From Trichaptum fuscoviolaceum (lineage: Eukaryota > Basidiomycota > Agaricomycetes > Hymenochaetales > Trichaptaceae): 64,000 bases of DNA. Made by a program: the position numbers and the translations under genes. The notes under the pieces were generated by a model. The model searched no databases and was not told where the DNA came from. It saw only the letters and a list, made by a program, of their open reading frames with translations. This document shows positions 23,095 through 36,556 of this stretch, piece by piece; the stretch's first letter is position 1; each line of letters starts with the position of its first letter. The stretch covers positions 2,587,424-2,651,423 of the forward strand of contig CAJSYZ010000001.1 of the NCBI GenBank assembly GCA_910574455.1. Direction: 5' to 3'.

Positions 23095-25206
23095 CTAGTT
23101 GTGTTGTGCAACACTTGACCCGGCTTCTAGTTGTGCTGGCCATTGAAGGACACTTTGTGAGGAGTGGGGATGCGAAAGATTGGGTATGAAGGAGGGAATC
23201 GAAAGGAGCGGTACACTCATCTGAGCTCCCATTGGCAGCATTGAAGTGTCGCTTGCCTCTGGCAGTGTCATCTGCACTTGAAGGTCGATTGTATCAATAG
23301 CTGCCCAGCCACTGCGTCTCTGCACTGTGGTCGCAGCATTATACAAGCCAGAAAACCGTGGGTTTTGTTCAAGTTGAGGGTTTGCTTTCATGTGGTCGAT
23401 GATGCGTTGCGTAAGAGTTGCCTTTGTGCCTTCAAATGACAGTCCAAATGCACTGGCAATATCCTCCAGTTCCCCTTTCCTTTTGGCCTTCAAAGTGCCG
23501 GTAAAGACTCCAGTTGTCGCTTTTGCGCAGCGTTCGATGTTACGTTCCTCCAACACCCTCTGCTTTTCCGCTTGTACAACAGCCTCTTGTTGCTGCCTTT
23601 CCTCCCTTCTTTTCTTCTCATCTTCCCATATCTTCAGACCTTCCTCCGATGTGAGTAGAGTTGAGCCAGTGCGAAAACGTCGGTCCTTTCTCTTTTGCTT
23701 TTGATTCATACGGAACCTCATTGTGCTGAGCTCTCGTTGTACCAGAACACAGTGAGCCTCGGCAGAGTCACGTTGGGCTTCCACTTCTTCAACTGTCTCC
23801 CGTAGTCGTCGGATTTCATCCCATGCTTCACAAAGATTGAAGCCACGAACAGGCTTGACTGCATCATGAGTGGTTGATGATGCTCGAGAGGTTGTCAGGC
23901 GAGTTTGTCGAGAATTCTGAACTGGCTTGTGTGAACCCATCCTAATGTCGGCATTTTCAGAGGGACCAGCTGAGCCACTGTGGTCATCCAGAGGTGTCTC
24001 TATGTTATCTGAGATGGTGGGATATGTAGTTGTACGAGATGGAATAACGGTATCAGACTCTGAAATTTCTGAATCACTTGAAGAGTCGTTGCCATCAACA
24101 ATTGCCATAGAGGGATGCCAATCGAAGTCATCAGATGAAAGATCTGGAAAGTCTGGCATTGCAGTCGGAAATGAAGGTGGGAGATGATCCTTGATCGACG
24201 TGTCTGAGCTTGGTGCAAAGTCCTCGTGTGTAAAAATGGAAGGGTTGAGTGGCCGAATCCCAGTTTTCGCCCATGCAGCTATGATTGTCTGTGTTTGAAA
24301 GGTCATTGACCGGACTGTCAATTACTCCTTCACAACATCTTCAGTCTGGATGCTTTCACCTGTTGTAACTACAACATCATCGCATCTCTCCTCCCATCTC
24401 CGTTGAAGAGGTCCAAAGACTCCAACATCAAGAGGCTGCAGTCGGTGAGTGGTGTGTGGAGGTAAGCAGTACAAGTGAATGTCGTGTTCAATTGCTAACT
24501 CAATCATGCGGTCCGTGAGATGTGAGCCATGTCCATCCAAAATTAACAGAATTGGTCTCTTAGAAAAGTTCCTGTTCACGACATGGGGAATGAACATCTT
24601 TTCAAACCACTCTGCACAAACAAAGTCATTGGTCCAGCCATTTTCAGTTGTAGCAACCCCAAGTAGAGTATATTAGTTATTATTCTCTTAATTTAAGCCT
24701 CAAACTCACGAGTAACTTCCAGTGGTTTCAAACCATTCTGGGTGAAATGAAGCTCCTGCAAACACAAATCCTGGAGGTGAAGCAGAGCCATCGGCACAAA
24801 TACTCTCAACAACTGTGACCAGTTGCAGGTTTCCGGCCTGAAGCTTTATCGGCACTCTCTGAGACCTTGAAAAGAAGTACTTTTCCCTTCGACCCTTTCT
24901 TCCTCCACCTAATTGCAATCCTTTCTCATCCATGTTGTAGACATTTTCCCATGGAATTTGAAACTTCGAGAGTGTTTCCGACAGAGTTTTGAAGTGCTCG
25001 GTGACAACTGTAAAGTTGAATGCTTGTGCTCGTTTTGGATCGAGTCCGGATGGTCTTGCTAACTTGATCTCTGGATGTCGGACCATGAAGCCACGAAGCC
25101 ATTTTGGAGAGGGAATCCGTCCACAAAGAGCGTGAACCATTGGTTTAATTGTGCGTTTGTTAACAGCATGCCCGCAGTGTCCATGGAACATAAGCCAATC
25201 AACCAA
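23095..25206 (-). pseudogene. Pogo/CENP-B-type DDE transposase, C-terminal part, disrupted
   Basis: This is the main body of a transposase whose N-terminus lies at 36154-36389 beyond an inserted retrotransposon. It opens in the DNA-binding CENPB/Tc5 helix-turn-helix (KEDALVDWLMFHGHCGHAV across the junction, then SPKWLRGFMVRHPEI). The DDE_1 catalytic motifs follow: NMDEKGLQLG, LLILDGHGSH and RLQPLDVGVFGPLQ. A long hydrophilic tail ends at the TAG at 23095. Two further lesions are visible. An in-frame TAA at 24324-24322 interrupts the frame between DVVKE and LTVRSMTF. An intron-like segment starting at about 24710 has a clear branch site (AACTAAT) but no AG where the downstream exon begins. I did not find terminal inverted repeats. 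Non-functional as it stands. Confidence 0.85.
25202..25206. repeat. Left 5-bp target site duplication of gypsy element (ACCAA)
   Basis: ACCAA directly precedes the left LTR and recurs directly after the right LTR at 36154-36158, as expected for a Ty3/gypsy integrase. Removing the element and one copy restores the transposase reading frame. Confidence 0.95.
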
Positions 25207-25756
25207 TGTTACGTTCACGGCTTCGATGGACTTATCACGGAAATGATAAGTGACCAAAGCGTTGTTGGGTGAAGTAGCAAGTACAGTATAGAGGGTCCGC
25301 TTTGTGAGGGTCTCTATACCGGAAGTCGTGGGTGAACAGAGTCTTTGGTACGTGATTGTAAAAGACTATAGGAGGATTGACTTAAGTGTCATCCTGGGGC
25401 GCTATGTACATGGCCTTATATACTACAGAGAACAATAGAGTGGAGCAAGGAATGAAACTACATCATCGCGGGTCAGAAGTGGAGTGAGTCCGTCATAGTG
25501 GCTCTAATTAATGGAGGATGATGTCAGATCGGAGCATAGGTGGAGTAGAGTGGAGTAGAATGATGTATCATCGGAGTAGAAGGTCCTGGGGCTCTTCGGA
25601 GTGAAGGTGGAGCGAGTGGAGCCATCGGAGTGTGGAGTCGATGATGAAAGAATGATGCAATGTGTGTACGCACATGCAGGTAGAAAGGGTGAGAGAAAAA
25701 GATGAGGGGGAACATAAACAATGTGTAAACAAGGGTAAGCAGCTTGATGCGTAACA
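25207..25756 (-). repeat. 3' LTR of the gypsy element (550 bp)
   Basis: Ends in the inverted heptamers TGTTACG/CGTAACA. By eye it is identical to 35604-36153 along its whole length. Confidence 0.95.
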
Positions 25757-25831
25757 ATACCCTGTCACTAAGATTGAAATTCCGTAGTAGCATAAGAATG
25801 CGAATGCGAGAATTTCAAAAGAAAGGTACAA

Positions 25832-25920
25832 CGCTATAGGATCAAGTTAAGATCAATAAGTAAAAGCGTAAGAGAAAGATAAAATATCAGTCGCTATAGG
25901 GTCAAGTTAAAACCAATAAG
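25832..25920. repeat. Imperfect 29-bp direct repeat next to the 3' LTR
   Basis: CGCTATAGGATCAAGTTAAG... at 25832-25860 recurs at 25892-25920 with three mismatches, spaced 60 bp. It lies between the last accessory ORF and the 3' LTR, where a polypurine tract would be expected. No clean purine run abuts the LTR, so minus-strand GTGACAGGGTAT just upstream of it is the nearest candidate. Confidence 0.6.
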
Positions 25921-26879
25921 GGTTCAAGCGCTGGGTACATTGGATGAAATCGTCTGAAAAAATTAAAGTTATTAAGGAAGGTATGATATAAAGAAACAGA
26001 CTGTGGATTAGTCCAGTCGATGGGGGCATATGTCTCGGGCGAAGTGAAGTCCTCGGGTCGGGGAGTGTTGACCACATAAACTGGCGAAGATGGTTGGATA
26101 ACGATGTTGGGCGGAGTCATGTGAGGGAGTTCAGGAAGGGGAACATCCTGGGCTTGCTGATTGATCGCCTGAAGTTCTTCCTCTGTTGGTAAGTGGAGCT
26201 GTTGACGAGGGCTGGGCAGTGGCGGAGCGGATTCGAAATTGCTGAGTTGATCGAGGTCGAAGATCGGCACATGCGCTTGCTCATGGTATGCATCGGGCGC
26301 AGCCAGCGGTGGTAGCTCGAGAGGGGAGGGAGTCGTCATAGGCTGTGGTTCCGGGTCATCTGGTAAGTGTACCTGTCCATCTTTGATTTCCGATGAGAGG
26401 AGGCGCTCGAATTCGTACTCGGTGAACTGGTTCTCGAGTTGAGTAATAAGAACTTGATTCATGCGACGTACTAGCTCCTGATACTCATAAGAATCAATCT
26501 TCTGCTTCCTGAGTCGGTTGTTCTCCAAGATATCAAGCATCTTGCACAAGAGGCCATACATCTGTTGCGTAGTGTAGGTGATGTGCGGGAGTGGGCTGAC
26601 GCTGGTGTTCTTGGTGAGGTCGCGAAGTTTGCCGTTGTGGAGAAGAGCAGCTGCACACTGTCGACGGGTCTGCGAGGTCTGGATGAAGGGGAGTCCGGGG
26701 AGGAGTTGGTCGCATAGAGGGGGGAGGAGTTGGCCTTCTCTGTATCTCTGTCGGTTTGGGTGCACTCGTTTCTGTGTCGAAGTGTAATAGAGGCGTCCAG
26801 AGAGTCCGTGCCGGGTGTTGCGAGTAGCAGGCATGGGGACTAGTTCTAGTGAACCGGGCAGTACCTGCAACACTTGCAT
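25902..26879 (-). CDS. Gypsy accessory ORF D (325 aa), unknown function
   Basis: This is the last and longest of four overlapping open frames lying 3' of pol. It begins at an ATG that overlaps the end of ORF C by 34 bp in the -1 frame and stops 145 bp before the 3' LTR. The N-terminus is basic (TQKRVHPNRQRYREGQLLPP). The middle contains a helical stretch rich in Glu, Arg and Leu (LLCKMLDILENNRLRKQKID, then YEYQELVRRMNQVLITQLEN), possibly a coiled coil. The C-terminal half is proline-rich. No catalytic motif or membrane segment is seen and I recognise no family. Confidence 0.55.
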   Translation of the reverse strand: MQVLQVLPGSLELVPMPATRNTRHGLSGRLYYTSTQKRVHPNRQRYREGQLLPPLCDQLLPGLPFIQTSQTRRQCAAALLHNGKLRDLTKNTSVSPLPHITYTTQQMYGLLCKMLDILENNRLRKQKIDSYEYQELVRRMNQVLITQLENQFTEYEFERLLSSEIKDGQVHLPDDPEPQPMTTPSPLELPPLAAPDAYHEQAHVPIFDLDQLSNFESAPPLPSPRQQLHLPTEEELQAINQQAQDVPLPELPHMTPPNIVIQPSSPVYVVNTPRPEDFTSPETYAPIDWTNPQSVSLYHTFLNNFNFFRRFHPMYPALEPLLVLT

Positions 26880-27397
26880 ATGCAGATCGGGTCTTCGTCG
26901 TACGCCACAAAGTGTTGCTGCGCTGTTCCTGCGTGGCGGATGCGGCGGCCTATCCAGGGGACGTAAGGGAGCTCGAGGAGGATGTGGAGGGCTTGGAGAA
27001 TTGGGACGGCGTATTCGGGGGTGAAGAAGGTGCGGCGGAGGACTAGAGTGGTGAGCTGGGGGTGGGGGTTGAGAGTCTTGAGGCGGCGGATGTTGACAAG
27101 ATCAGTGTGGGCCGGGTCGAAGATATACTCTCGGACAAGGTCGAGAGGACTCAAAGGGGGAAGTGTAGGAGAGGGAGGGGGAGAGGGGTATTCGTTCTCG
27201 GGGTGGACGGGTGTCAGTTGCGGGTGCCATACGCCATTGTGCCAGTCGTTTGCGTGATTGCCCCAGCCTGTTACCCAGAGGGGATCAATATCCTCAACAG
27301 GTAGTAAGGGTCCGGGGTCAGTGGCGGCAAGGTGTTCCTCAGCGTCAAAGGGAGGGACTTCGAATGTTGGATTGGGAGTGTCGAAGTTGAATGGCAT
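26846..27397 (-). CDS. Gypsy accessory ORF C (183 aa), unknown function
   Basis: An ATG-initiated frame overlaps ORF B by 53 bp and ORF D by 34 bp. It is acidic and proline-rich at first (PENEYPSPPPSPTLPPLSPL), then more structured (LDLVREYIFDPAHTDLVNIR and LVLRRTFFTPEYAVPILQAL). It ends in a cysteine cluster, CICKCCRYC, which could bind metal. No known domain was recognised. The overlap pattern suggests coupled termination-reinitiation, frameshifting or splicing, none of which I can show. Confidence 0.5.
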   Translation of the reverse strand: MPFNFDTPNPTFEVPPFDAEEHLAATDPGPLLPVEDIDPLWVTGWGNHANDWHNGVWHPQLTPVHPENEYPSPPPSPTLPPLSPLDLVREYIFDPAHTDLVNIRRLKTLNPHPQLTTLVLRRTFFTPEYAVPILQALHILLELPYVPWIGRRIRHAGTAQQHFVAYDEDPICICKCCRYCPVH

Positions 27398-27964
27398 GTC
27401 GAGGGGGGATATTCTCTTTGTCAGAATCGGGGTTGTCTGTGGTGTGACTGGTCAGGGATTCCGTGGAGGTGGTTGGGCTATATGCAGGAGAAAAGGGTTC
27501 CAAGGGCGGAGGGGATGTGGAACTGTTGGAGCTAGAAGTTCGAGCGGGTGTCGGTTGCCTGTGAATGAATCTAAATCCGTTTGGAAGTTGTACTGATCCT
27601 TCGAGGTCGTTTGACTTGACCATTTGAATTAGTATATAAAGTCCTATCGAAAGGTGTGCCTGGTGTAGTGGAGTCGCATGGGTAAGAAGAGTATCAATGA
27701 AATTGATGAGGTGATTGAGCGGTGGAGTGTTGGGTTCTTCTTGTTGATGAATGAAATTGAATAGGTGGAAAATGAGTGTGGGTTGACGGTTGGTCGGAGT
27801 TTCTGCTGCTAGTGTGCGAAGGTCGTTAAGAATTTGTTCTTTGCTTATTTCTGTGGGAGGGGGAGGGTCATTACGAAGGGGTTGTGGAGATGGTATCGGA
27901 GTAGGGCGGCGGTGGTTGATATTGCGGCGTTGACGTGATAATGAACTGATTGTGCGGCCCATAT
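27345..27964 (-). CDS. Gypsy accessory ORF B (about 206 aa), unknown function
   Basis: I take the first in-frame ATG (MGRTISSLSRQRRNI, about 27964), although the frame is open farther upstream to about 28136. The product has a basic N-terminus, a hydrophobic helical middle (RQPTLIFHLFNFIHQQEE, then PLNHLINFIDTLLTHATPLH) and a Ser/Thr/Pro-rich tail. It overlaps ORF A by about 94 bp and ORF C by 53 bp. No family was recognised. Confidence 0.45.
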
Positions 27965-28167
27965 CGTACTGAAATTTCCGGGGTGTCTCTTCGATATGCG
28001 TGTGAGAACACGAAGCGTTGGTTGAAAGGCTGATAGGGTCCTGGGCCTTGGTCAATGCGTTTGAATGCTTCGATAAGGAGTAGTTCCGCAAGATCCTTGA
28101 CTTCAGGGCGGATGTCAAGTGAGAGGATGTATGCACAAACGTTAGCGAGATCGGCTGGTTTGATCAT
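27871..28167 (-). CDS. Gypsy accessory ORF A (98 aa), unknown function
   Basis: The first frame after pol starts with an ATG 159 bp beyond the pol stop. Its N-terminal half looks folded and helical (ANVCAYILSLDIRPEVKDL, then AELLLIEAFKRIDQ); the C-terminus is Pro/Tyr-rich (QYQPPPPYS). The PPPPYS stretch resembles a PPPY-type late-domain motif, which in other retroelements recruits WW-domain proteins, but that link is speculative. Confidence 0.45.
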   Translation of the reverse strand: MIKPADLANVCAYILSLDIRPEVKDLAELLLIEAFKRIDQGPGPYQPFNQRFVFSHAYRRDTPEISVRYGPHNQFIITSTPQYQPPPPYSDTISTTPS

Positions 28168-28326
28168 GGCCTGGTGGGTAGGGGAGCTTCTGGGTTCGAT
28201 GAAATACTTCTGGGGTTGTCTAGATTCCGGGTGGTGGTTGAAATTACACTCGGAGTATCGGAGGATTTTGACAGATGGCGTAGTGTACTTGTTCCGGATG
28301 GGGTAATTGGACAGATGACCGGGAGG

Positions 28327-31260
28327 TCATTTGATCCGGTGTGCCTTCTTGTATTCCGATAGAAGTTCCTGAGTATTCTCCAGTGATTGTTCCGATATCC
28401 ATTGGTTCTCTGATGTCGGGTATCCTAGCCATTTGACGAGATATTCGCGTTTCCTTGGTGGTCCTCGGTGATTGAGTATCGCTTCGACTTCAAATTCTTC
28501 TTCTCCTTCGATAAGGTCAGGTGGCGGTCGTGTGTAAGATGGTCCATGTTCGTCCGTTTCCTTGTGTGGAGTGAGAAGAGAAGCATGAAATACTGGATGT
28601 ATTTTCCAATGCTCTGGAAGATTAAGTCGATAGACATTGTCCCTGAGCTTCTTGATGATCGTAAAGGGTCCTTCTCGTTTAGATTGGAATTTCGAGGGTA
28701 TTCCGGTTCGTCTGAGGTTCCTGGCTTCTAACCATACACTTTGTCCTTCTTCCAAGGGCTGGAAGTGTGATTCCTGTGTCTCACACTGGAATTCTTGTGC
28801 GAGAGTTAGAGCTGCTTCGGCTTCGGTTCGGAGTTCCAATATCTTGATTAAGCGAGTTTGGAGTGTGGGGATGTTACTGTCGATCTCGGATTTTTCCGTA
28901 GGAAATGACGTTGGGTCGTATCCCATGAGTAATCGGAAAGGGGTCTGCTCTGTGGTGGAATGCTTGCGATTGTTGTGAGTGAATTCCATCATTGGTATGT
29001 ATCGTGACCAATGTTGGGGGTGGTTTGCTGCGTAAATTCGGAAGTATGCTTCGATCTCCTGGTTCGTTCGTTCTGCTTGTCCATCAGTTTGTGGGTGATA
29101 TGCTGTATACATAGCCTGCTTGATGTGCAGTAAGCGGCATAGCTGTCTGAATAGTGTCGATGCAAATTGGGGTCCACGATCTGAGATTATTTTCCTGGGT
29201 AATCCAAATCGTTTGTAGACATTGTCGATGTAGAGTTGTGCGGTATCGAGTGCGGTGATCGTCTTGTTGCATGGGGTGAGTACTATTGCCTTGGTGCAAT
29301 CATGGTCCACAATAACACATATGCTGTTGTAGCCATTTGATTCCGGTAGGTCGGTAATGAAATCAATATTGACTGTAGCAAAGGGGTATGTGTCTTTGTC
29401 TGCAATGATCGGGCTGAGCGGAGGTACGAGTGGATGGTGATTTATCTTCATCTGTTGGCAAATTGCGCATCCTTGCACATATTTCGAAATGAACTGCTGC
29501 ATGCGGGGCCAGTAGTAGGTGCGTCGAATCTGTTCCATTGTGTTTGCTATTCCTGGGTGATTTCGCGTAGGGAGGTCATGATGAAGTCGTAAGATGTTTC
29601 TCATGATTTCCTTGTTCTTCGGAACATAGATCTTGTTCCTAAAGTGTACAAGGTTATCCTTGATTGAGAAGTCGTTCATCTTTGGTTTCGTGAGGGGGAG
29701 TTCCTTCTGAATGAGTGTCATTGCTTTCTGAATGTCGCCTGTTTCGAGTCGAATCTTGTCATGAAGTTCGTCGATGTCAATGGTGTTTCGATCGTCATCG
29801 TCCTGTTCTTCTATTTCGGCTTCGAGTATTTCCATCTCTTGAATGAAAACCTTTTCTGGTAGAAGTGTAACTTCGTTGTTGAGTTCTCCTTCCGTTTTAA
29901 ATTGGTCGGGTCTCCGGGAAAGGGCATCGGATTGGATCATGTGTTTTCCGGGGACTGCTTGAATTTGGAGGGGGTAACGTGAAAGTTCGTTCTGCCATCG
30001 GGCTTGTCGAGGGGTTAATCGTTGGGGTTGTCGCCAATAGGTTAGGTTCTTGTGATCACAATGTACTGTGATAATGTGTGGGCTGCCTAATAGATAGTGT
30101 CGCCATGTCTGTAATGCGCGGATGATAGCAAATAGTTCCCTGTCGTATATTTGCCAGTTTCGTTGCGTCGGATTAAGTGCTTGGGAGATGTATCCAATTG
30201 GTCGCAATTGATTATCCTTGTCGAGTTGTCGTAGTACTGCACCAGTAGCTACGGCTGAAGCGTCGGTTTTGAGGTAGAATGGCTTGTTCGGGTCGGGTTG
30301 CATAAGGAGTGGTTGTTTTGAGAATAAGTCCTTGAGTGTTTGAAAAGCATGTTGTTGTCGGTTGGTCCAAACGAATGGTATGTTTTTGCGTTTTAGTTGA
30401 TCAAGGGGTCGGCATATGGTGGCATAATGGGGAATGAATCGCCTGTAGAAGTTCGTAAATCCTGTAAATGATCGTATGTCTCGTAGATTCTTTGGTGTCG
30501 GCCAGTCAACTATTCCTTGTATCTTCGTCGGGTCAGTCTTGATCTGTGACTCGGAGATAATATATCCTAGGAATGGGACTTCGGTCTGGTGGAATCGGCA
30601 TTTGGCGGGTTTGAGATATAGCTTGTGTTTCTTGAGGACGTCAAAAACTTCGAGGGTGTTCGAGATAAGTTGTTGCATAGTGGCGGCATGGATCATAATG
30701 TCGTCCATGTAAACAATACACTTGTTTTCGCGGATTTGCTTCGCAAGTATATCATTCATGAAACGTTGAAAGGTGGCGGGTGAATTGCATAGGCCAAAGA
30801 ACATAACTGTCGGTTGAAAGTGTCCTTCTTCGCAGTTGAATGCGGCTTTCCATTGGTCTTCTTCCTTGATTCGAATGTTGTGGTATCCTTGTCGAATATC
30901 GAGGGTGGTGAAGTATTTGGATCCTTGGAGTTGATTCAATAGTGTCTGGGTGTTCGGTATCGGAAATCCATCGTGGATTGTATGCTCGTTTAGATATCGA
31001 TAATCCTGAATCGGTCGGAGGGTTCCATCTTTCTTGCTGATGAAGAATAATGGTGAGGCCATTGGTGATGCGGAGGGTTTAATGAATCCTTTCTTGAGTA
31101 GGTCATTAATAAGATCACGGAGTATGGGTCTTTGGTGGTACGGAGTATTGTAGGTTTTGAAGATTTTCGGTATGAATGAGGGTTTCGTCTTGATTTCGTG
31201 ATCATAAGGTCGTGCTGGTGGATATGTTTTGGATTTCTTTTTCGGAGAAAATGTTGGCAT
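28327..31260 (-). CDS. Gypsy pol: reverse transcriptase, RNase H, integrase, chromodomain (977 aa)
   Basis: The frame opens at the ATG at 31260 and is unbroken. RT spans about residues 45-230 with LDIRQGYHNIRI and the catalytic VYMDD at 184-187. RNase H starts near FYLKTDASAVATGAVL. The integrase zinc module reads HHDLPTRNHPGIANTM to YYWP and GCAICQQ. The core follows with VNIDFITDLP, ISDRGPQF and YHPQTDGQAERTNQEIEAY. A C-terminal chromodomain (EFEVEAILNHRGPPRKREYL then VKWLGYPTSENQW) marks the element as a chromovirus, a clade that targets heterochromatin marks. The protease frame overlaps its first 59 bp in another frame; pol lies +1 relative to protease, so it needs a frameshift, reinitiation at ATG 31260, or reflects a one-base indel. 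Confidence 0.95.
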   Translation of the reverse strand: MPTFSPKKKSKTYPPARPYDHEIKTKPSFIPKIFKTYNTPYHQRPILRDLINDLLKKGFIKPSASPMASPLFFISKKDGTLRPIQDYRYLNEHTIHDGFPIPNTQTLLNQLQGSKYFTTLDIRQGYHNIRIKEEDQWKAAFNCEEGHFQPTVMFFGLCNSPATFQRFMNDILAKQIRENKCIVYMDDIMIHAATMQQLISNTLEVFDVLKKHKLYLKPAKCRFHQTEVPFLGYIISESQIKTDPTKIQGIVDWPTPKNLRDIRSFTGFTNFYRRFIPHYATICRPLDQLKRKNIPFVWTNRQQHAFQTLKDLFSKQPLLMQPDPNKPFYLKTDASAVATGAVLRQLDKDNQLRPIGYISQALNPTQRNWQIYDRELFAIIRALQTWRHYLLGSPHIITVHCDHKNLTYWRQPQRLTPRQARWQNELSRYPLQIQAVPGKHMIQSDALSRRPDQFKTEGELNNEVTLLPEKVFIQEMEILEAEIEEQDDDDRNTIDIDELHDKIRLETGDIQKAMTLIQKELPLTKPKMNDFSIKDNLVHFRNKIYVPKNKEIMRNILRLHHDLPTRNHPGIANTMEQIRRTYYWPRMQQFISKYVQGCAICQQMKINHHPLVPPLSPIIADKDTYPFATVNIDFITDLPESNGYNSICVIVDHDCTKAIVLTPCNKTITALDTAQLYIDNVYKRFGLPRKIISDRGPQFASTLFRQLCRLLHIKQAMYTAYHPQTDGQAERTNQEIEAYFRIYAANHPQHWSRYIPMMEFTHNNRKHSTTEQTPFRLLMGYDPTSFPTEKSEIDSNIPTLQTRLIKILELRTEAEAALTLAQEFQCETQESHFQPLEEGQSVWLEARNLRRTGIPSKFQSKREGPFTIIKKLRDNVYRLNLPEHWKIHPVFHASLLTPHKETDEHGPSYTRPPPDLIEGEEEFEVEAILNHRGPPRKREYLVKWLGYPTSENQWISEQSLENTQELLSEYKKAHRIK

Positions 31261-31765
31261 AGGGCATATATTCCTTTGGGATGTCGAGTTTTTCTGGTGG
31301 TGGTAGTTTCTGTTGTTTTTCTTGTTCCATTCGGGTTGAAATCGTAATCTTGTTTATGGTGATTGCATCGTTTCCCCAGTCTATCTTTGGTTTAGCTTGT
31401 TTAAACCAAGGTAGACCTAGTATAACGTCGTCTTTTGGGATATGAGTGAGGTAGAAATGTGGTGAAAGAGTGTGGGGGTGTGTGATGTGGATTCGAGTTC
31501 GTTTGGTGACACTGCCTTCTGTGTTGAGTGTACCATCGGCGTTACTGACTAGTATGGGTTTGTCGATTTTCTGCGTTTTTAGTTTGAGTTTGTTGGCTAG
31601 TTTTGAGTTGATGAAATTGAGTTGTGCTCCGGTGTCGAGTAGAGCTGAGAGTGTGTGAGGTTGTCCGTTAATGAGTACCGTGATGGGTATGCGAAAAGAG
31701 CGAGTGTTTCCGTTGATAGTGATGGTGTTGAGTTGAATCGGATTAACCAACTCGGAGTTGATCAA
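31202..31765 (-). CDS. Gypsy aspartic protease, expressed by -1 frameshift from gag
   Basis: The 187-codon frame has the retropepsin active site LLDTGAQLNFINSKLA and the later hydrophobic-hydrophobic-Gly motif DVILGLPWF. It has no ATG at its 5' end. It begins in the -1 frame exactly at the end of gag, where the slippery heptamer A AAT TTT occurs (31771-31765), giving TTG ATC AAC as the first shifted codons. The C-terminus overlaps pol. Confidence 0.88.
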   Translation of the reverse strand: MINSELVNPIQLNTITINGNTRSFRIPITVLINGQPHTLSALLDTGAQLNFINSKLANKLKLKTQKIDKPILVSNADGTLNTEGSVTKRTRIHITHPHTLSPHFYLTHIPKDDVILGLPWFKQAKPKIDWGNDAITINKITISTRMEQEKQQKLPPPEKLDIPKEYMPYANIFSEKEIQNISTSTTL

Positions 31766-32904
31766 AAATTTCCATCATCATCGTCAAAATCATTGTTGTC
31801 GTCATTGGGATCGGGCATTTCGTCTAGCATGTTGAACAATGCTTCCTGTTCCTGTCCATTGAGGTCTGTCATCATTTCATGGATCTGGATTGCGCGTTCA
31901 GCAATCAAATCGTCCGGGTCATCGGGTTCTTCGTCAAGTTCCATCGAGTTGATGTTTCGCTTCTTGAATCGTCCATTGTTTCGTCTGAAGTTGTTCTGGA
32001 ATTTCCTTGGGGATTTTCCTGAGCTTCGGAACTTCGAGGTGCGTGCGGGACGCGAAGGGCATTTGTTTGCAAAATGTCCTGCCTTCTTGCAGTAGAAACA
32101 GAGTCCATCTGCTTGCGCTTTCTTCTTTTCCTCGGGCGTAAGCTTGTTGAAGTACATCGCGTAGAGCTTGAATGATTCTTCCAAATTTTCTGGTTCCTCG
32201 GGTTGGTCTGATTCGGGTTCAGAATCTATGTCCATTTCATTGAGTCGTCGTCTGCGAAATTTGTTGAATCGAGGTCGATTATATGAGGATTGTCCATAAC
32301 GGTTGCGGAGTCGATTGAACGGGCGGTTGTCCTGATAGATCTCTTCGTATGATTTTCCTATCTTCCTGGCTGCTTCGTAGTAAGGTGCCATTATCTTTAT
32401 TCCATTGTCTGGAACTGGGATATCCTTTTGAAGTAGTGCGGTTCGCGTATGTCGCAGTAATCCATTCTTGAACATGGAAAAGAGTACTGTGAAGTCGGTA
32501 ATGTTTGCTTCACGTGCGAGTCGCTGGAAGTTATGAATGTAATCATCGATTTTGTCCGTAGGTGCTTGCTTGAGGCTAGAGAGTTCCTTGAATGCGTCGG
32601 CGATGTAATCGGTTGAGATGAAATGTGACTTGAATTTGTCCACAAATTGTTGCCAAGTCATAACCCATTGTGCATTGTCCTGTTCGTCTTTAACATTCTT
32701 TGCAAAGATTGCAGCAGGTCCTTCAGTGCAAAAGGAGAGTGCAAATCGTATTTTGCGTTGATCGGTTGCATAGTCCAAATCGTTGAGTGCCAAGTAGTTT
32801 TCAACTAGGCTAAGCCATCGGCTAGCTTCGCTTCGTTTGCCGGTAAAGTTAAAAGGTTTATTTGCTCCGGTGCCTCGCGGTTGATGGTCTGCTTGATCGG
32901 CCAT
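31762..32904 (-). CDS. Gypsy gag with CCHC zinc knuckle (380 aa)
   Basis: The ATG at 32904 is the first ATG anywhere on the predicted transcript. The product opens MADQADHQPRGTGANKPFNF and has a retrotransposon gag core (SRWLSLVENYLALNDL; MTWQQFVDKFKSHFIS). It then carries a nucleocapsid knuckle CFYCKKAGHFANKC (CX2CX4HX4C) and a basic, Arg-rich stretch, and ends in an acidic tail. The stop TGA (31764-31762) forms part of the frameshift site. The same frame is open upstream for 332 further codons with no Met, so a longer Gag could be made if initiation is not at AUG. Confidence 0.9.
   Translation of the reverse strand: MADQADHQPRGTGANKPFNFTGKRSEASRWLSLVENYLALNDLDYATDQRKIRFALSFCTEGPAAIFAKNVKDEQDNAQWVMTWQQFVDKFKSHFISTDYIADAFKELSSLKQAPTDKIDDYIHNFQRLAREANITDFTVLFSMFKNGLLRHTRTALLQKDIPVPDNGIKIMAPYYEAARKIGKSYEEIYQDNRPFNRLRNRYGQSSYNRPRFNKFRRRRLNEMDIDSEPESDQPEEPENLEESFKLYAMYFNKLTPEEKKKAQADGLCFYCKKAGHFANKCPSRPARTSKFRSSGKSPRKFQNNFRRNNGRFKKRNINSMELDEEPDDPDDLIAERAIQIHEMMTDLNGQEQEALFNMLDEMPDPNDDNNDFDDDDGNF
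31765..31771 (-). promoter_or_regulatory. Programmed -1 frameshift heptamer A AAT TTT at gag-pro junction
   Basis: In the gag frame the codons are GGA AAT TTT TGA. The heptamer A AAT TTT fits X XXY YYZ exactly, sits right before the stop, and slipping back one base enters the protease frame. Any downstream stimulatory structure was not assessed. Confidence 0.8.
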
Positions 32905-33900
32905 TTCGACTATCACTGGGGTTCCTGGGGGTGTAGGTGACGGTGGGGGTGGGGGTGGCTGTGGAAGGTTTTCCTGATCGGGGTGTTCGTCGTTTTCCAG
33001 AATTTCGGGTACAGGTGAGCTTCGGTTACTATTGTTGGCGTTAACTGATGTAGATCCTTCGGCTGAGTGTGCAGATCCTTCGGCGGTGTGTGCCGTGTCC
33101 TCGGCTTCTGAGTCTTCTTCTGATTCGTCTGAAGTTTCTGCTTCAGATTCTCGTCTGCGCCTTCTGAGTTCAGCTTCCTCTTTCTCTAGTTGCTTGAGAG
33201 TAAGGATAGTTTGTGTCTCCTGCGAAGTGTAGTTCTTGGGAAGTGGAGTCCAAGTGGGTATCCAAGTTGCGCCTTCTTCAAATCTGGTGTTGATGCGAAG
33301 TCCTTCGAATTGTCCTACAAGTTCTGGTTCTTCGGATTTGAGTTCAGAAACAGGTGCAGGTGTTTCAGCCTTCGGTTGGGTGAATGTGAGGAGTGGGGAG
33401 GTTTGTTCAGCTTTAGGTGCTGCTGCTGCTGCGTAAGATAATGAGGGTAGTGCTGTCGATTCAGCGGGTGGTGCTTCGGTTTTAGCTGGTGGTGCTTCTG
33501 GTTGAGTAGTGGTTAATGGCGAGTGTTGTGAAGGAGCGGGTGATGCAAGTTGAGAAGAAACAACTCTGGGTGAGTTAAGTCGACTGCCTGTTCTTGATGT
33601 TCTTGCAAGTATCTGGTCGATTTCTTCCTGACTGGGTTCGATTCCTGCGTACCAAGTATTAACCTGTTTGTAGTATGTGGTCGGGTTCTTGATTGTATGC
33701 GAGATTGCTCTCCAGGTGTCGTGTCCTGAGTGAAAATGAAGGTAGACTTTTCTTCTGGATTTGTCAAGTCTGTACCAGGCTCGGTTTACTGGGTCAAATT
33801 CAGCGTTTTCTGGGCGGGTAACTCCAACGGGTACTTGTGCTGCTATGGGTACGTATTTTCCTGGGACTGGTGGTCTGTCTTTCGGCGCCAGTTTAACGAG
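32905..33900 (-). CDS. Met-free open frame contiguous with gag (332 codons)
   Basis: The gag frame stays open upstream of its ATG to the TAA at 33903-33901, with no Met codon. The content is protein-like: a first region (PENAEFDPVNRAWYRLDKSR, KVYLHFHSGHDTWRAISHTI), Pro/Ala/Glu-rich repeats (EAPPAKTEAPPAES), then GLRINTRFEEGATWIPTWTP, a charged segment (KEEAELRRRRRESEAETSDE) and a proline run just before MADQ. It either encodes an N-terminal Gag extension started at a non-AUG codon or reached by readthrough or splicing, or is a decaying coding relic kept free of ATG. Confidence 0.5.
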
Positions 33901-33915
33901 TTACTGAATTTTAAT

Positions 33916-35022
33916 TCAGTTGGTGTCTTCGTTTGCTGGGGGAGTCGGAGTAACGGTTCGGCTTCCTTCTTCGGGTTCAACAGGAGGTGGAGTGATGGAT
34001 CGGATGGATGCTTCGAGAGGTGGGCTAGCAACTCGGGTGGGTGGTTCAGAGTGTAGTAGGTAACAAATACACTTCCGTATTTCGGTTGCAACGTCCTGGG
34101 ATTGTCCGGGCCAATAAACGATTGATGTGAGGTTCAAAAGGGTTTCTCTTTCGGAGAAATGATCAATGGAGTTGTCAATTTTGGTGTGGCAGATTCCAAT
34201 AAGGCCTTTGCGAAGGTAACAATTGGGAATGTATGGCTTTCCTTCGAACCAAAAGATGCCGTGTCGGTAGATCCAATTAATGGGGTCGTGTCGTATGGAG
34301 TGTAGACGGAGTTGGAGGTATTGTAGGTCGTATTTGGAGTTCTGTTGAATCGGATGAACTAATGCACTGTTGACAAGGTGCTGATAGTTGTCTTCAATTA
34401 GTTGGTCGAAGTTGGGGGCGGGAGCGGGAGCTTGATTCGCCAGATTGATTAATTGGTTGTTGTAATGTATTCTGAGTCGTCTTCCTGTCCTTTGGAAAGT
34501 TTGTCTGAGGTTTCCTAAAGTTCTGGAAGGTCCTGGAGCGGGTGTGGGAGTTCGTTCGGACGTTCGAAGTTGAGGGAAGGGACGTAGGGCTTGTTCTACG
34601 CTTGGGGGTGTAGTGATCGGAGGGTTGGAGTGATTCGGAGTCACGGGAGGTAGTAATCTGTTGTGCTCAGATACTTCGTTCCAATGGTGGCTTGGGTTCT
34701 CGAAATCTGTTCCTTCCTCGGCGGAGTATGCGTAGGTTTCCTGAGTAACGGTGGGTTCTAATCGAGGGGGTACAAGTTGATCGTAGAGGCTTTCGTTATC
34801 TTCTTGTGTTCGATGTTCGTACTCGGAATAGTCCTGTGGGTCTGTCCTGCTTTCGTCAAGTTCGGAGGGGTTATGAGGGGGTGTGTCGGATTGGTATGAA
34901 GTGGGTTGTAAGTCGTAGATGGAGACGGGGTTAAGGATGTTAATCCTTAGTACGCCTGCCAATGGTAGTTCCGTGCGATCGGCGAGTAGTATAGTAATCC
35001 TCAGGTTGGGCACTTCCTCGGG
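33916..35022 (-). CDS. Leader ORF1 of gypsy element (368 codons, no Met), with HHCC-like zinc module
   Basis: After a TAA at 35025-35023 the frame is open for 368 codons to TGA at 33918-33916. There is no ATG, so any translation starts at a non-AUG codon or depends on splicing. The first part is acidic and Pro-rich. The C-terminal part reads KPYIPNCYLRKGLIGICH, then DHFSERETLLNLTSIVYWPG and EIRKCICYLL. It parallels the integrase H2C2 module in pol (two His, YWP, Cys pair), though the Cys spacing is CxC, not CxxC. It is in the same frame as gag, separated by TGA, four codons and TAA. Confidence 0.5.
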   Translation of the reverse strand, partial: PEEVPNLRITILLADRTELPLAGVLRINILNPVSIYDLQPTSYQSDTPPHNPSELDESRTDPQDYSEYEHRTQEDNESLYDQLVPPRLEPTVTQETYAYSAEEGTDFENPSHHWNEVSEHNRLLPPVTPNHSNPPITTPPSVEQALRPFPQLRTSERTPTPAPGPSRTLGNLRQTFQRTGRRLRIHYNNQLINLANQAPAPAPNFDQLIEDNYQHLVNSALVHPIQQNSKYDLQYLQLRLHSIRHDPINWIYRHGIFWFEGKPYIPNCYLRKGLIGICHTKIDNSIDHFSERETLLNLTSIVYWPGQSQDVATEIRKCICYLLHSEPPTRVASPPLEASIRSITPPPVEPEEGSRTVTPTPPANEDTN

Positions 35023-35589
35023 TTATCAACCCTTTGAGCTACAAGAGTATGCGTGAGTGATATTAACGTCTTCGGATACCTTGTCCTTTCTGTCTTCCTA
35101 GGTTCGCTGGATAATCTGTTTCGATGTTCACCGTGTATTGCTGTTGTCTACGAGTGAGGGTATGCTTGTCTTCTGGCTGTGGCAGTTTCTGTGGTGGATG
35201 AGACCTTTCCCCTGCTTCCTTCTTCTCTTCAAGTTACGTTGGACGTGGCTAAGCTGCTTGAATGGGTCGCGATCCTCTGCTTCACGCTATCACCAACCAA
35301 ACGCGTAACAAGGACCGTAAATTCTGTCGTGAACCTGCTTAATTTCTGTGATTACTTGTCTGTCGCTTCCTTCCAAGTATAACACTGTATGCTTGGTGTA
35401 TTCGATCGTACTGTCGTTCGTATTCCTTTCGTTCCTAGATGATAGTTAGTAGACAAGGGCCAGTTGTAATACTTAACCGTCAGTATTCCGGATTGGAATG
35501 CGTAGGGTGTACCGATTTATTCTGCTGTAGAATGTGGTAGAGCGTAGAGGGGGGTGTTTCAGAGTTGAGATCGATCTCAGATGAGAAAG

Positions 35590-35600
35590 AAGTCAATCCT
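35590..35600 (-). promoter_or_regulatory. Self-priming primer binding site (AGGATTGACTT)
   Basis: Three bases downstream of the 5' LTR the sense strand reads AGGATTGACTT. It is the exact reverse complement of AAGTCAATCCT at 35780-35770 inside the LTR, near the predicted transcript start. In Tf1 of fission yeast the first 11 nt of the mRNA anneal to the primer site in the same way. No tRNA-type TGG start is present. Confidence 0.8.
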
Positions 35601-35603
35601 AAT

Positions 35604-36153
35604 TGTTACGTTCACGGCTTCGATGGACTTATCACGGAAATGATAAGTGACCAAAGCGTTGTTGGGTGAAGTAGCAAGTACAGTATAGAGGGTCCGCTTT
35701 GTGAGGGTCTCTATACCGGAAGTCGTGGGTGAACAGAGTCTTTGGTACGTGATTGTAAAAGACTATAGGAGGATTGACTTAAGTGTCATCCTGGGGCGCT
35801 ATGTACATGGCCTTATATACTACAGAGAACAATAGAGTGGAGCAAGGAATGAAACTACATCATCGCGGGTCAGAAGTGGAGTGAGTCCGTCATAGTGGCT
35901 CTAATTAATGGAGGATGATGTCAGATCGGAGCATAGGTGGAGTAGAGTGGAGTAGAATGATGTATCATCGGAGTAGAAGGTCCTGGGGCTCTTCGGAGTG
36001 AAGGTGGAGCGAGTGGAGCCATCGGAGTGTGGAGTCGATGATGAAAGAATGATGCAATGTGTGTACGCACATGCAGGTAGAAAGGGTGAGAGAAAAAGAT
36101 GAGGGGGAACATAAACAATGTGTAAACAAGGGTAAGCAGCTTGATGCGTAACA
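35604..36153 (-). repeat. 5' LTR of the gypsy element (550 bp)
   Basis: Read by eye as identical to the 3' LTR. It contains a TATATAA box on the sense strand (35819-35813). The self-priming match AAGTCAATCCT starts at 35780, about 39 bp downstream of the box, and probably marks the transcript 5' end, so U3 is about 36153-35781 and R-U5 about 35780-35604. Confidence 0.93.
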
Positions 36154-36158
36154 ACCAA
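36154..36158. repeat. Right 5-bp target site duplication of gypsy element (ACCAA)
   Basis: Exact repeat of 25202-25206. Confidence 0.95.
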
Positions 36159-36389
36159 CGCATCCTCCTTTGCTTCCGTTAAAAGTCGCTGTCTCCGGTT
36201 CACCACAAAGCTACTTTGATTCAAGTGCAGAACTCGGCGCCGAAGAGTATAATATGGCACATCAAACAGTGTTGCAGCCTCTTGAATGGTTTTGCATTGC
36301 TTACTCTGAAATGCCTTTCGGGCCTTCTCAAGTGCGGCCTCCCTGACTAAATCTGCCTCTCGAACAGCCTTATCAGCCTGATATGGCAT
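36154..36389 (-). pseudogene. Pogo/CENP-B-type transposase, N-terminal part cut off by the gypsy insertion
   Basis: From the ATG at 36389 the frame gives MPYQADKAVREADLVREAAL and then a Psq-type helix-turn-helix (CKTIQEAATLFDVPYYTLRR), followed by RQRLLTEAKEDALV. It then meets the duplicated target site and runs into the LTR. The same codons continue at 25206, so both halves belong to one gene. Transcription from this side would now read into the 5' LTR. Confidence 0.88.
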
Positions 36390-36556
36390 CCTGCATATGC
36401 TTCAATGTCAGAGCATGGTTACCAGAAGCTATATAAATAAGAGAAACCAAGAGTGGGACTTTGTATGATCCATCCTACGAAGGGTGTATTTGCAGCTTGG
36501 TCCGCAGATGAGTTCTGTCGGAGCTTAGATCGGCATAACAAGTGTAACACATGCCG

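Follow-up and report, generated by a model that had tools for sequence, protein, structure and literature searches.

In rice tungro bacilliform virus (RTBV), about 895 nucleotides (nt) are scanned across open reading frames (ORFs) I and II, both without internal AUG, and ORF I is started at AUU, according to passages of two accounts (PMC5902531, PMC3542737). Glyco-Gag of murine leukemia virus (MLV) starts at accCUGg, and passages of PMC5778647 state that the corresponding extension in other gammaretroviruses is generally free of AUG. In Tf1/sushi retrotransposons the self-primer is the 5' end of the mRNA and pairs with a primer-binding site (PBS) downstream of the 5' long terminal repeat (LTR), as described in part of PMC10085805. 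Here we describe a Tf1/sushi-like chromovirus (Ty3/gypsy) on the minus strand of a 64-kb stretch of the genome of the fungus Trichaptum fuscoviolaceum (the whole stretch of DNA analyzed, hereafter the window), in which 2,882 nt ahead of gag contain no ATG. These 2,882 nt appear to encode three methionine-free proteins.

Like RTBV and the badnaviruses (in the passages available from PMC5902531 and PMC3542737), the element has consecutive long ORFs without internal AUG ahead of the ORF for capsid and reverse transcriptase, here beginning with gag; the non-AUG start of the first ORF and the leaky scanning to a downstream ORF reported there for RTBV are proposed likewise for the fungal element. 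The same passages give about 895 nt and two ORFs for RTBV, following a shunted leader with short AUG ORFs, as against about 2,880 nt and three ORFs here, so that the fungal stretch is about three times longer. Thus the principle was already described, although the first-pass annotation knew of no retroelement leader of this kind and length. Unlike RTBV, the element has no AUG after its probable mRNA start and is a fungal LTR retrotransposon with a chromodomain integrase. Members of the Caulimoviridae have a movement protein, no LTRs or integrase, and a shunt leader with short AUG ORFs. The present element carries LTRs and an integrase, and the seven element proteins scanned gave no Pfam match to a movement protein; it thus lies outside that family.

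The element may also resemble MLV glyco-Gag (as covered in part of PMC5778647) in a putative in-frame Gag extension with a candidate CUG, the CTG having A at −3 and G at +4 in both families compared below. It differs in having two further non-AUG ORFs before the extension. Moreover, the extension is much longer, with 328–345 codons compared with about 90 in MLV. LTR retrotransposons of bdelloid rotifers reportedly have captured additional ORFs. With the Tf1/sushi chromoviruses the element shares the chromodomain integrase and a self-primer complementary to a PBS past the 5' LTR, whereas upstream ORFs or a long AUG-free leader are not mentioned for Tf1 in the excerpts of PMC10085805. Among titles and abstract openings from the open-licence literature of PubMed Central we saw none that dealt with a fungal LTR element whose leader lacks AUG, whose gag begins at a non-AUG codon or which has an ORF ahead of gag, an absence of little weight.

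The AUG-free stretch and its conservation

The stretch and the gene that follows it are:
32905..35786, minus strand: ATG-free stretch, 0 ATG in 2,882 nt in all frames
31762..32904, minus strand: gag, 380 codons and a stop when counted from the first AUG, with capsid and zinc knuckle

On the minus strand the final ATG of the LTR lies at 35789, and the following one, at 32904, is the gag start. The absence of any sense-strand ATG between them, claimed in the first-pass annotation, was borne out by our count and by 1,000 dinucleotide shuffles of the stretch (mean 20.2 ATG, standard deviation 3.5, minimum 10), and the antisense strand of the same interval contains 45 ATG, close to the roughly 44 found earlier by hand. 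The earlier expectation of about 45 on the sense strand assumed uniform composition. Since A and C predominate on this strand (33% and 31%, with 17% G and 19% T), the expectation falls from 45 to 20 (20.3 from dinucleotides, against 0 observed). The next longest ATG-free runs in the window are 462 nt (minus strand) and 378 nt (plus strand). ATG is the most depleted trinucleotide of the stretch by z-score (−5.6), followed by GAG (−4.8); CAT, the reverse complement of ATG, occurs on the same strand about as often as expected (45 versus 43), CTG, GTG and ACG lie close to their expectations, and TTG exceeds its own. The non-coding 776 nt of the leader have no ATG, compared with 6.7 expected. In the downstream genes of the same element there are 32 ATG in gag and 56 in pol (11 methionines in 380 codons and 20 in 1,008, respectively).

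The family to which the element belongs (family A) was sampled as 30 copies, window copy included, returned as loci of 40 scored matches (157 candidates in the 59-Mb genome). Eighteen of the 30 have no ATG in the stretch and 12 have one to three. The other 29 copies contain 19 ATG in total, compared with 48.9 ± 6.3 after random substitutions of equal number and kind, in counts that are not independent, the copies being related. Variants present in two or more of the 30 copies (shared variants) create an ATG in the leader in 2 of 156 cases, compared with 15 of 228 singletons (Fisher P 0.012); among shared variants of gag such gains number 10 of 85 (P 0.0007 against the shared variants of the leader).

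The same genome, the only one compared, contains a diverged family B (three loci) and lineages C and D (one incomplete locus each). With the same landmarks, two B copies have no ATG in 2,766 nt (L063) and 2,752 nt (L064), and the third (L065) has none in the 2,707 nt read from U5 onward. Families A and B are 65–70% identical in nucleotides over the first 1.2 kb and unalignable in the middle. The lineage C locus has no ATG in all 859 nt read upstream of gag (4.0 expected); its gag is 27% identical to that of B. Its first methionine is preceded by 286 open codons in frame, an extension that aligns weakly with that of A (18–24%) and for which homology is not claimed. Thus the check put forward in the first-pass annotation, that diverged relatives should also lack ATG, holds in family B and in the part of lineage C that was read, within one genome. 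The abundant gypsy family D, at one locus (L067, 85–588; 476-aa gag frame), likewise has no ATG in the 504 nt before gag, where about 3.6 are expected (scaled from 6.45 in 900 nt). On account of this locus AUG avoidance itself looks ordinary and seems to be widespread among such elements; what does not look ordinary, and seems to set apart A and B, possibly also C, is how long the stretch is and what it encodes. Selection for an AUG-free route to the gag AUG is well supported, since ATG is absent from two strongly diverged families and part of a third-lineage locus, and since inherited variants create an ATG less often in the leader than in gag.

Three methionine-free frames and their candidate CUG starts

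The first-pass annotation described the stretch as a 2.88-kb leader. It is AUG-free as stated, but it does not appear to be just a leader, since three methionine-free ORFs (stop-to-stop reading) make up about 72% of its length as coding sequence:
34396..35004, minus strand: ORF1, proposed CUG start at 35004 (AACCUGA), 203 codons in 22 of 30 copies
33916..34443, minus strand: ORF2, methionine-free, 175 codons and a stop from a proposed CUG start at 34443 (AAUCUGG)
34066..34215, minus strand: integrase H2C2-like zinc-binding domain in ORF2 (PF17921)
32905..33891, minus strand: ORF3N, 329 codons from a proposed CUG start at 33891 (AAACUGG), extending Gag in frame at its N terminus

The length of ORF1 in the other eight copies is 80, 107, 120, 150, 150, 242, 362 and 362 codons. 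The window copy is without one nucleotide that is present in the 29 others, near leader position 1315, and ORF1 is thereby fused to ORF2; in L023 the same fusion results from a different 1-nt deletion. ORF2, which overlaps ORF1 in the +1 frame, has 175 codons in all 30 copies. ORF3N is methionine-free and, in 27 of 30 copies, reads in frame into gag without interruption (328–345 codons). Its indels found in more than one copy are 39, 3, 6 and 3 nt, all multiples of three, and its singleton indels are 21, 2 and (three times) 1 nt. Shared variants lie at codon position 3 in 19 of 29 cases in ORF1, 14 of 17 in ORF2, 45 of 80 in ORF3N and 78 of 85 in gag; by equal phase, those of the non-coding 764 nt number 11, 4 and 7. 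Protein identity between A and B is 39–41% for ORF1 and 32–34% for ORF2. When codons were shuffled synonymously, with the proteins kept, the mean number of out-of-frame ATG was 6.1 in A (ORF1/ORF2 overlap excluded) and 9.6 in B (ORF1 from L063, ORF2 and ORF3N from L064), and zero was never reached in 1,000 shuffles; for ORF3N of A taken singly, the probability of zero is 0.031.

The domain in ORF2 scores 21.7 bits in the window copy, below the PF17921 (Integrase_H2C2) cut-off of 25.5, and 32.5 bits, above it, in family B. Its H, H, C and C residues are invariant in the three aligned sequences of A and B, and the cysteines form a C-x-C pair instead of the C-x2-C that is usual in H2C2 domains. 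The predicted structure has a pLDDT (predicted local distance difference test) of 50 overall and about 72–74 in the domain; the first 11 matches of this model in the PDB are foamy-virus and Ty3 integrases, with weak E values (0.04–0.83), and a profile search gave similarly weak matches to Ty3 Gag-Pol (E 0.016) and foamy-virus integrase (E 0.3). ORF2 is similar to an integrase zinc module and may modify integration or bind nucleic acid. For ORF3N the predicted structure has a pLDDT of 45. A protein search with ORF1+2 returned a single near-identical 206-aa fragment (99%, 49% of the query) and otherwise nothing, and one with ORF3 plus gag had no match; neither had ORF1+2 among solved structures, pol among viral and prokaryote contigs, or L063 ORF1 and the L064 ORF3 extension in Pfam, where the C extension had a chance-level match alone (E 0.12).

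An in-frame CTG is kept in each ORF in both families, and we propose that translation of ORF1, ORF2 and ORF3 would start there. CCCAACCTGA opens ORF1 in A and in all three B copies, in which the ORF2 and ORF3 motifs are likewise present. The leader contains 29 CTGs in A and 22 and 20 in two B copies, of which four in A and three in each B copy have a purine at −3 and G at +4. Only two of these stand at matching places in A and B, namely the beginnings of ORF2 (AATCTGG in A, AACCTGG in B) and ORF3 (AAACTGG and ACTCTGG), both in frame.

Probable start of the mRNA and proposed route to gag

The features from which the start of the mRNA was placed are:
35604..36153, minus strand: 5' LTR, 550 nt, TGTTACGC...ACGTAACA, with 100% identity to the 3' LTR over 551 aligned nt
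35813..35819, minus strand: TATATAA box, putative LTR promoter, also in L063 and L064
35770..35780, minus strand: AAGTCAATCCT, self-primer and probable mRNA 5' end, complementary to the PBS
35590..35600, minus strand: PBS AGGATTGACTT, 3 nt past the 5' LTR, identical in L063 and L064

AGGATTGACTT is the exact 11-nt complement of AAGTCAATCCT and the longest LTR complement among the 28 nt following the LTR; when 2,000 28-mers were drawn at random from the element, no complement of 11 nt occurred. Primer and PBS are both exact in 29 of the 30 A copies. Of the three duplexes in the "pretzel" RNA structure that marks the Tf1/sushi group, the analysis covered the central one. Because such a self-primer is the mRNA 5' end in Tf1/sushi elements, we infer that the mRNA starts near 35780, past the final LTR ATG at 35789, as had been predicted from the sequence at first pass.

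That ATG opens an eight-codon frame (MTLKSILL), taken first as a conserved upstream ORF combined with shunting. Its 27 nt recur, with up to two mismatches, at 149 places of the genome (75 forward and 74 reverse; the 100 listed are all exact). This reading was dropped because the frame shares sequence with the TATA-to-start region and the self-primer, an overlap that can account for its conservation, and shunting is not needed because the remainder of the leader has no AUG.

In our judgment the probable mechanism is leaky scanning of the RTBV type, in which ribosomes would pass three CUG-started cistrons before reaching the gag AUG. A single genomic RNA would start near 35780, and the gag start, 2.88 kb further on, would be its first AUG. 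Between the two, the RNA would encode ORF1, ORF2 with its integrase zinc-binding-like domain, and the long N-terminal extension of Gag, each from an inefficient CUG at which few ribosomes would initiate. Most 40S subunits would bypass these CUGs by scanning and initiate at the gag AUG, and AUG would be excluded in all frames, coding and non-coding, since any AUG would capture scanning ribosomes. With low initiation at CUG, ORF1, ORF2 and extended Gag would be minor products and Gag the major one. Of the selection for scanning to gag that was suggested at first pass, the avoidance of AUG is thus supported, while passive scanning would give way to leaky scanning because of the three non-AUG-started cistrons. 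We lean, by a narrow preference, towards a fungal LTR clade having such a four-cistron mRNA, with three CUG-started methionine-free cistrons before an AUG-started gag, one of them an additional integrase zinc-binding module and one a Gag extension of more than 300 residues, and all 2.9 kb kept free of AUG in every frame.

If true, the four-cistron reading would give the longest natural linear-scanning path known to us, and AUG-free leaky scanning, which covers about 0.9 kb in a plant pararetrovirus, would reach 2.9 kb and three upstream cistrons in an LTR retrotransposon. The element would then be a natural test of 40S scanning distance and of CUG start efficiency in fungi. Conserved methionine-free proteins in what appears to be an untranslated leader would escape gene finders that require ATG, and similar genes may hide in the leaders of other retroelements.

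In both families the first 225–300 nt fold better than shuffled sequences (150-nt windows, z −2.0 to −3.8), and the strongest of the windows at z −2 or lower (4 of 37 in A, 6 of 35 in B) lie there. Beyond this structured start the windows that reach z −2 are 2 of 37 in A and 3 of 35 in B, with no common place seen, and the first 770–780 nt, folded in one piece, do not surpass shuffles in either family. This pattern suits linear scanning following a structured start. The structured leader start (about 35490–35789 in the window; L064) includes a hairpin, ACTTATCA...TGATAAGT.

Several results weigh against selection for an AUG-free, CUG-started, scanned stretch. Compared with the substitution-spectrum expectation, the deficit of ATG gains among shared variants is not significant (2 versus 5.7, P 0.07), and singleton gains exceed that expectation (15 versus 8.4). 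Not every ORF is significant singly in the synonymous test (the probability of zero is 0.195 for ORF1 and 0.08 for ORF2 of A, and 0.589 for B63 ORF1). In the ORF1/ORF2 overlap the shared variants are 2, 2 and 3 by codon position. Singletons also lean to third positions (21 of 42 in ORF1, 25 of 50 in ORF2, 45 of 83 in ORF3N and 52 of 82 in gag), less so than shared variants, and are therefore not purely neutral. All 29 other A copies retain the three CUGs, but they retain 16 of the 29 leader CTGs overall, so that only the comparison of A with B is informative. The ORF1 CUG has no G at +4, and a GTG just upstream of it is also conserved. The context of the gag AUG is good in A (GAAATGG) and has C at −3 in B (CCAATGG). 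Finally, a possible 43-nt mini-intron (GT...CTAAC...AG) lies at 35435–35477 and, judged by eye, at an equivalent site of L063 (about 1801–1843); if it is spliced, the AUG count is unchanged.

The strongest of the competing explanations, though still an improbable one, is that ORF1 and ORF2 form one fusion protein by +1 frameshifting, so that only ORF1 and ORF3 start separately. ORF2 overlaps ORF1 at +1 in both families, two of the 30 A copies, including that in the window, are fused through their own 1-nt deletions, and in L064 the two ORFs share one frame with a single stop between them. However, in both families the overlap contains a conserved CTG in strong context at the opening of ORF2, and a fusion could do without it. 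It is very unlikely that the stretch is a plain non-coding leader, kept AUG-free for scanning, whose open frames are by-products of T- and G-poor sequence. The absence of ATG from the non-coding first 776 nt and the 504-nt ATG-free leader of an ordinary gypsy element (family D) would suit this idea, but it is largely refuted by the codon-position data, with a third-position bias in all three ORFs. The A–B identity of the ORF1 and ORF2 proteins, the H2C2 match above the Pfam cut-off in B, the constant 175 codons of ORF2 and the multi-copy ORF3N indels in multiples of three speak against it as well.

Gag might instead be reached by splicing, an internal promoter, an internal ribosome entry site or shunting, with the absence of AUG serving the upstream ORFs only. 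The folding of the first 225–300 nt above shuffles in both families and the 43-nt intron-like stretch common to them agree with such a route. If the stretch were not scanned, however, nothing would account for the exclusion of AUG from ORF3N and the non-coding parts alike, right up to the gag start, and folded windows past the start are few and the first 770–780 nt unremarkable; we give this explanation very little credence. Removal of ATG by base composition or mutation pressure is hardly credible at all. The A/C-rich strand does cut the expectation to 20, but CAT is at expectation on the same strand, gag and pol have abundant ATG, and singletons make ATG freely (15 of 228). Mutational bias as the cause is refuted by the CAT count together with these singleton gains.

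Other features of the element

The remaining parts of the element are:
31765..31771, minus strand: A_AAT_TTT, likely −1 frameshift site before the gag TGA, into the protease frame
31202..31774, minus strand: protease frame (PF13975, PF08284)
28327..31353, minus strand: pol, with reverse transcriptase, RNase H, integrase, SH3 (Tf2-1-like) and chromodomain, all above Pfam cut-offs
25207..25756, minus strand: 3' LTR, from LTR alignment

The order protease, reverse transcriptase, RNase H and integrase with a C-terminal chromodomain, the protease lying in a separate frame, is that of a chromovirus. The pol domains score 128.4 (RVT_1), 123 (RT_RNaseH), 67 (H2C2), 39 (rve), 52.8 (SH3_Tf2-1) and 50.8 bits (Chromo). 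Gag matches PF03732 (53.7 bits), PF19259 (38 bits) and, just below the cut-off of 20.8, PF00098 (20.1 bits). The A_AAT_TTT site follows the slippery heptamer rule for −1 frameshifting and is kept in all 27 other A copies alignable there (two of the 29 were not aligned). At 31202–31353 protease and pol lie in different frames, which would reflect either recoding at a second site or a frame that is broken in the window copy. Past pol, about 2.5 kb (25757–28326) contain overlapping open frames of 272, 201, 399 and 151 aa in different frames, and a Pfam scan of three of them (272, 399 and 151 aa) gave no match. The whole element is about 10.9 kb long and is flanked on both sides by the target site duplication TTGGT. 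It is inserted within a transposase-like ORF, which is split into 24322–25206 and 36154–36401, the flanking ORFs being judged by eye.

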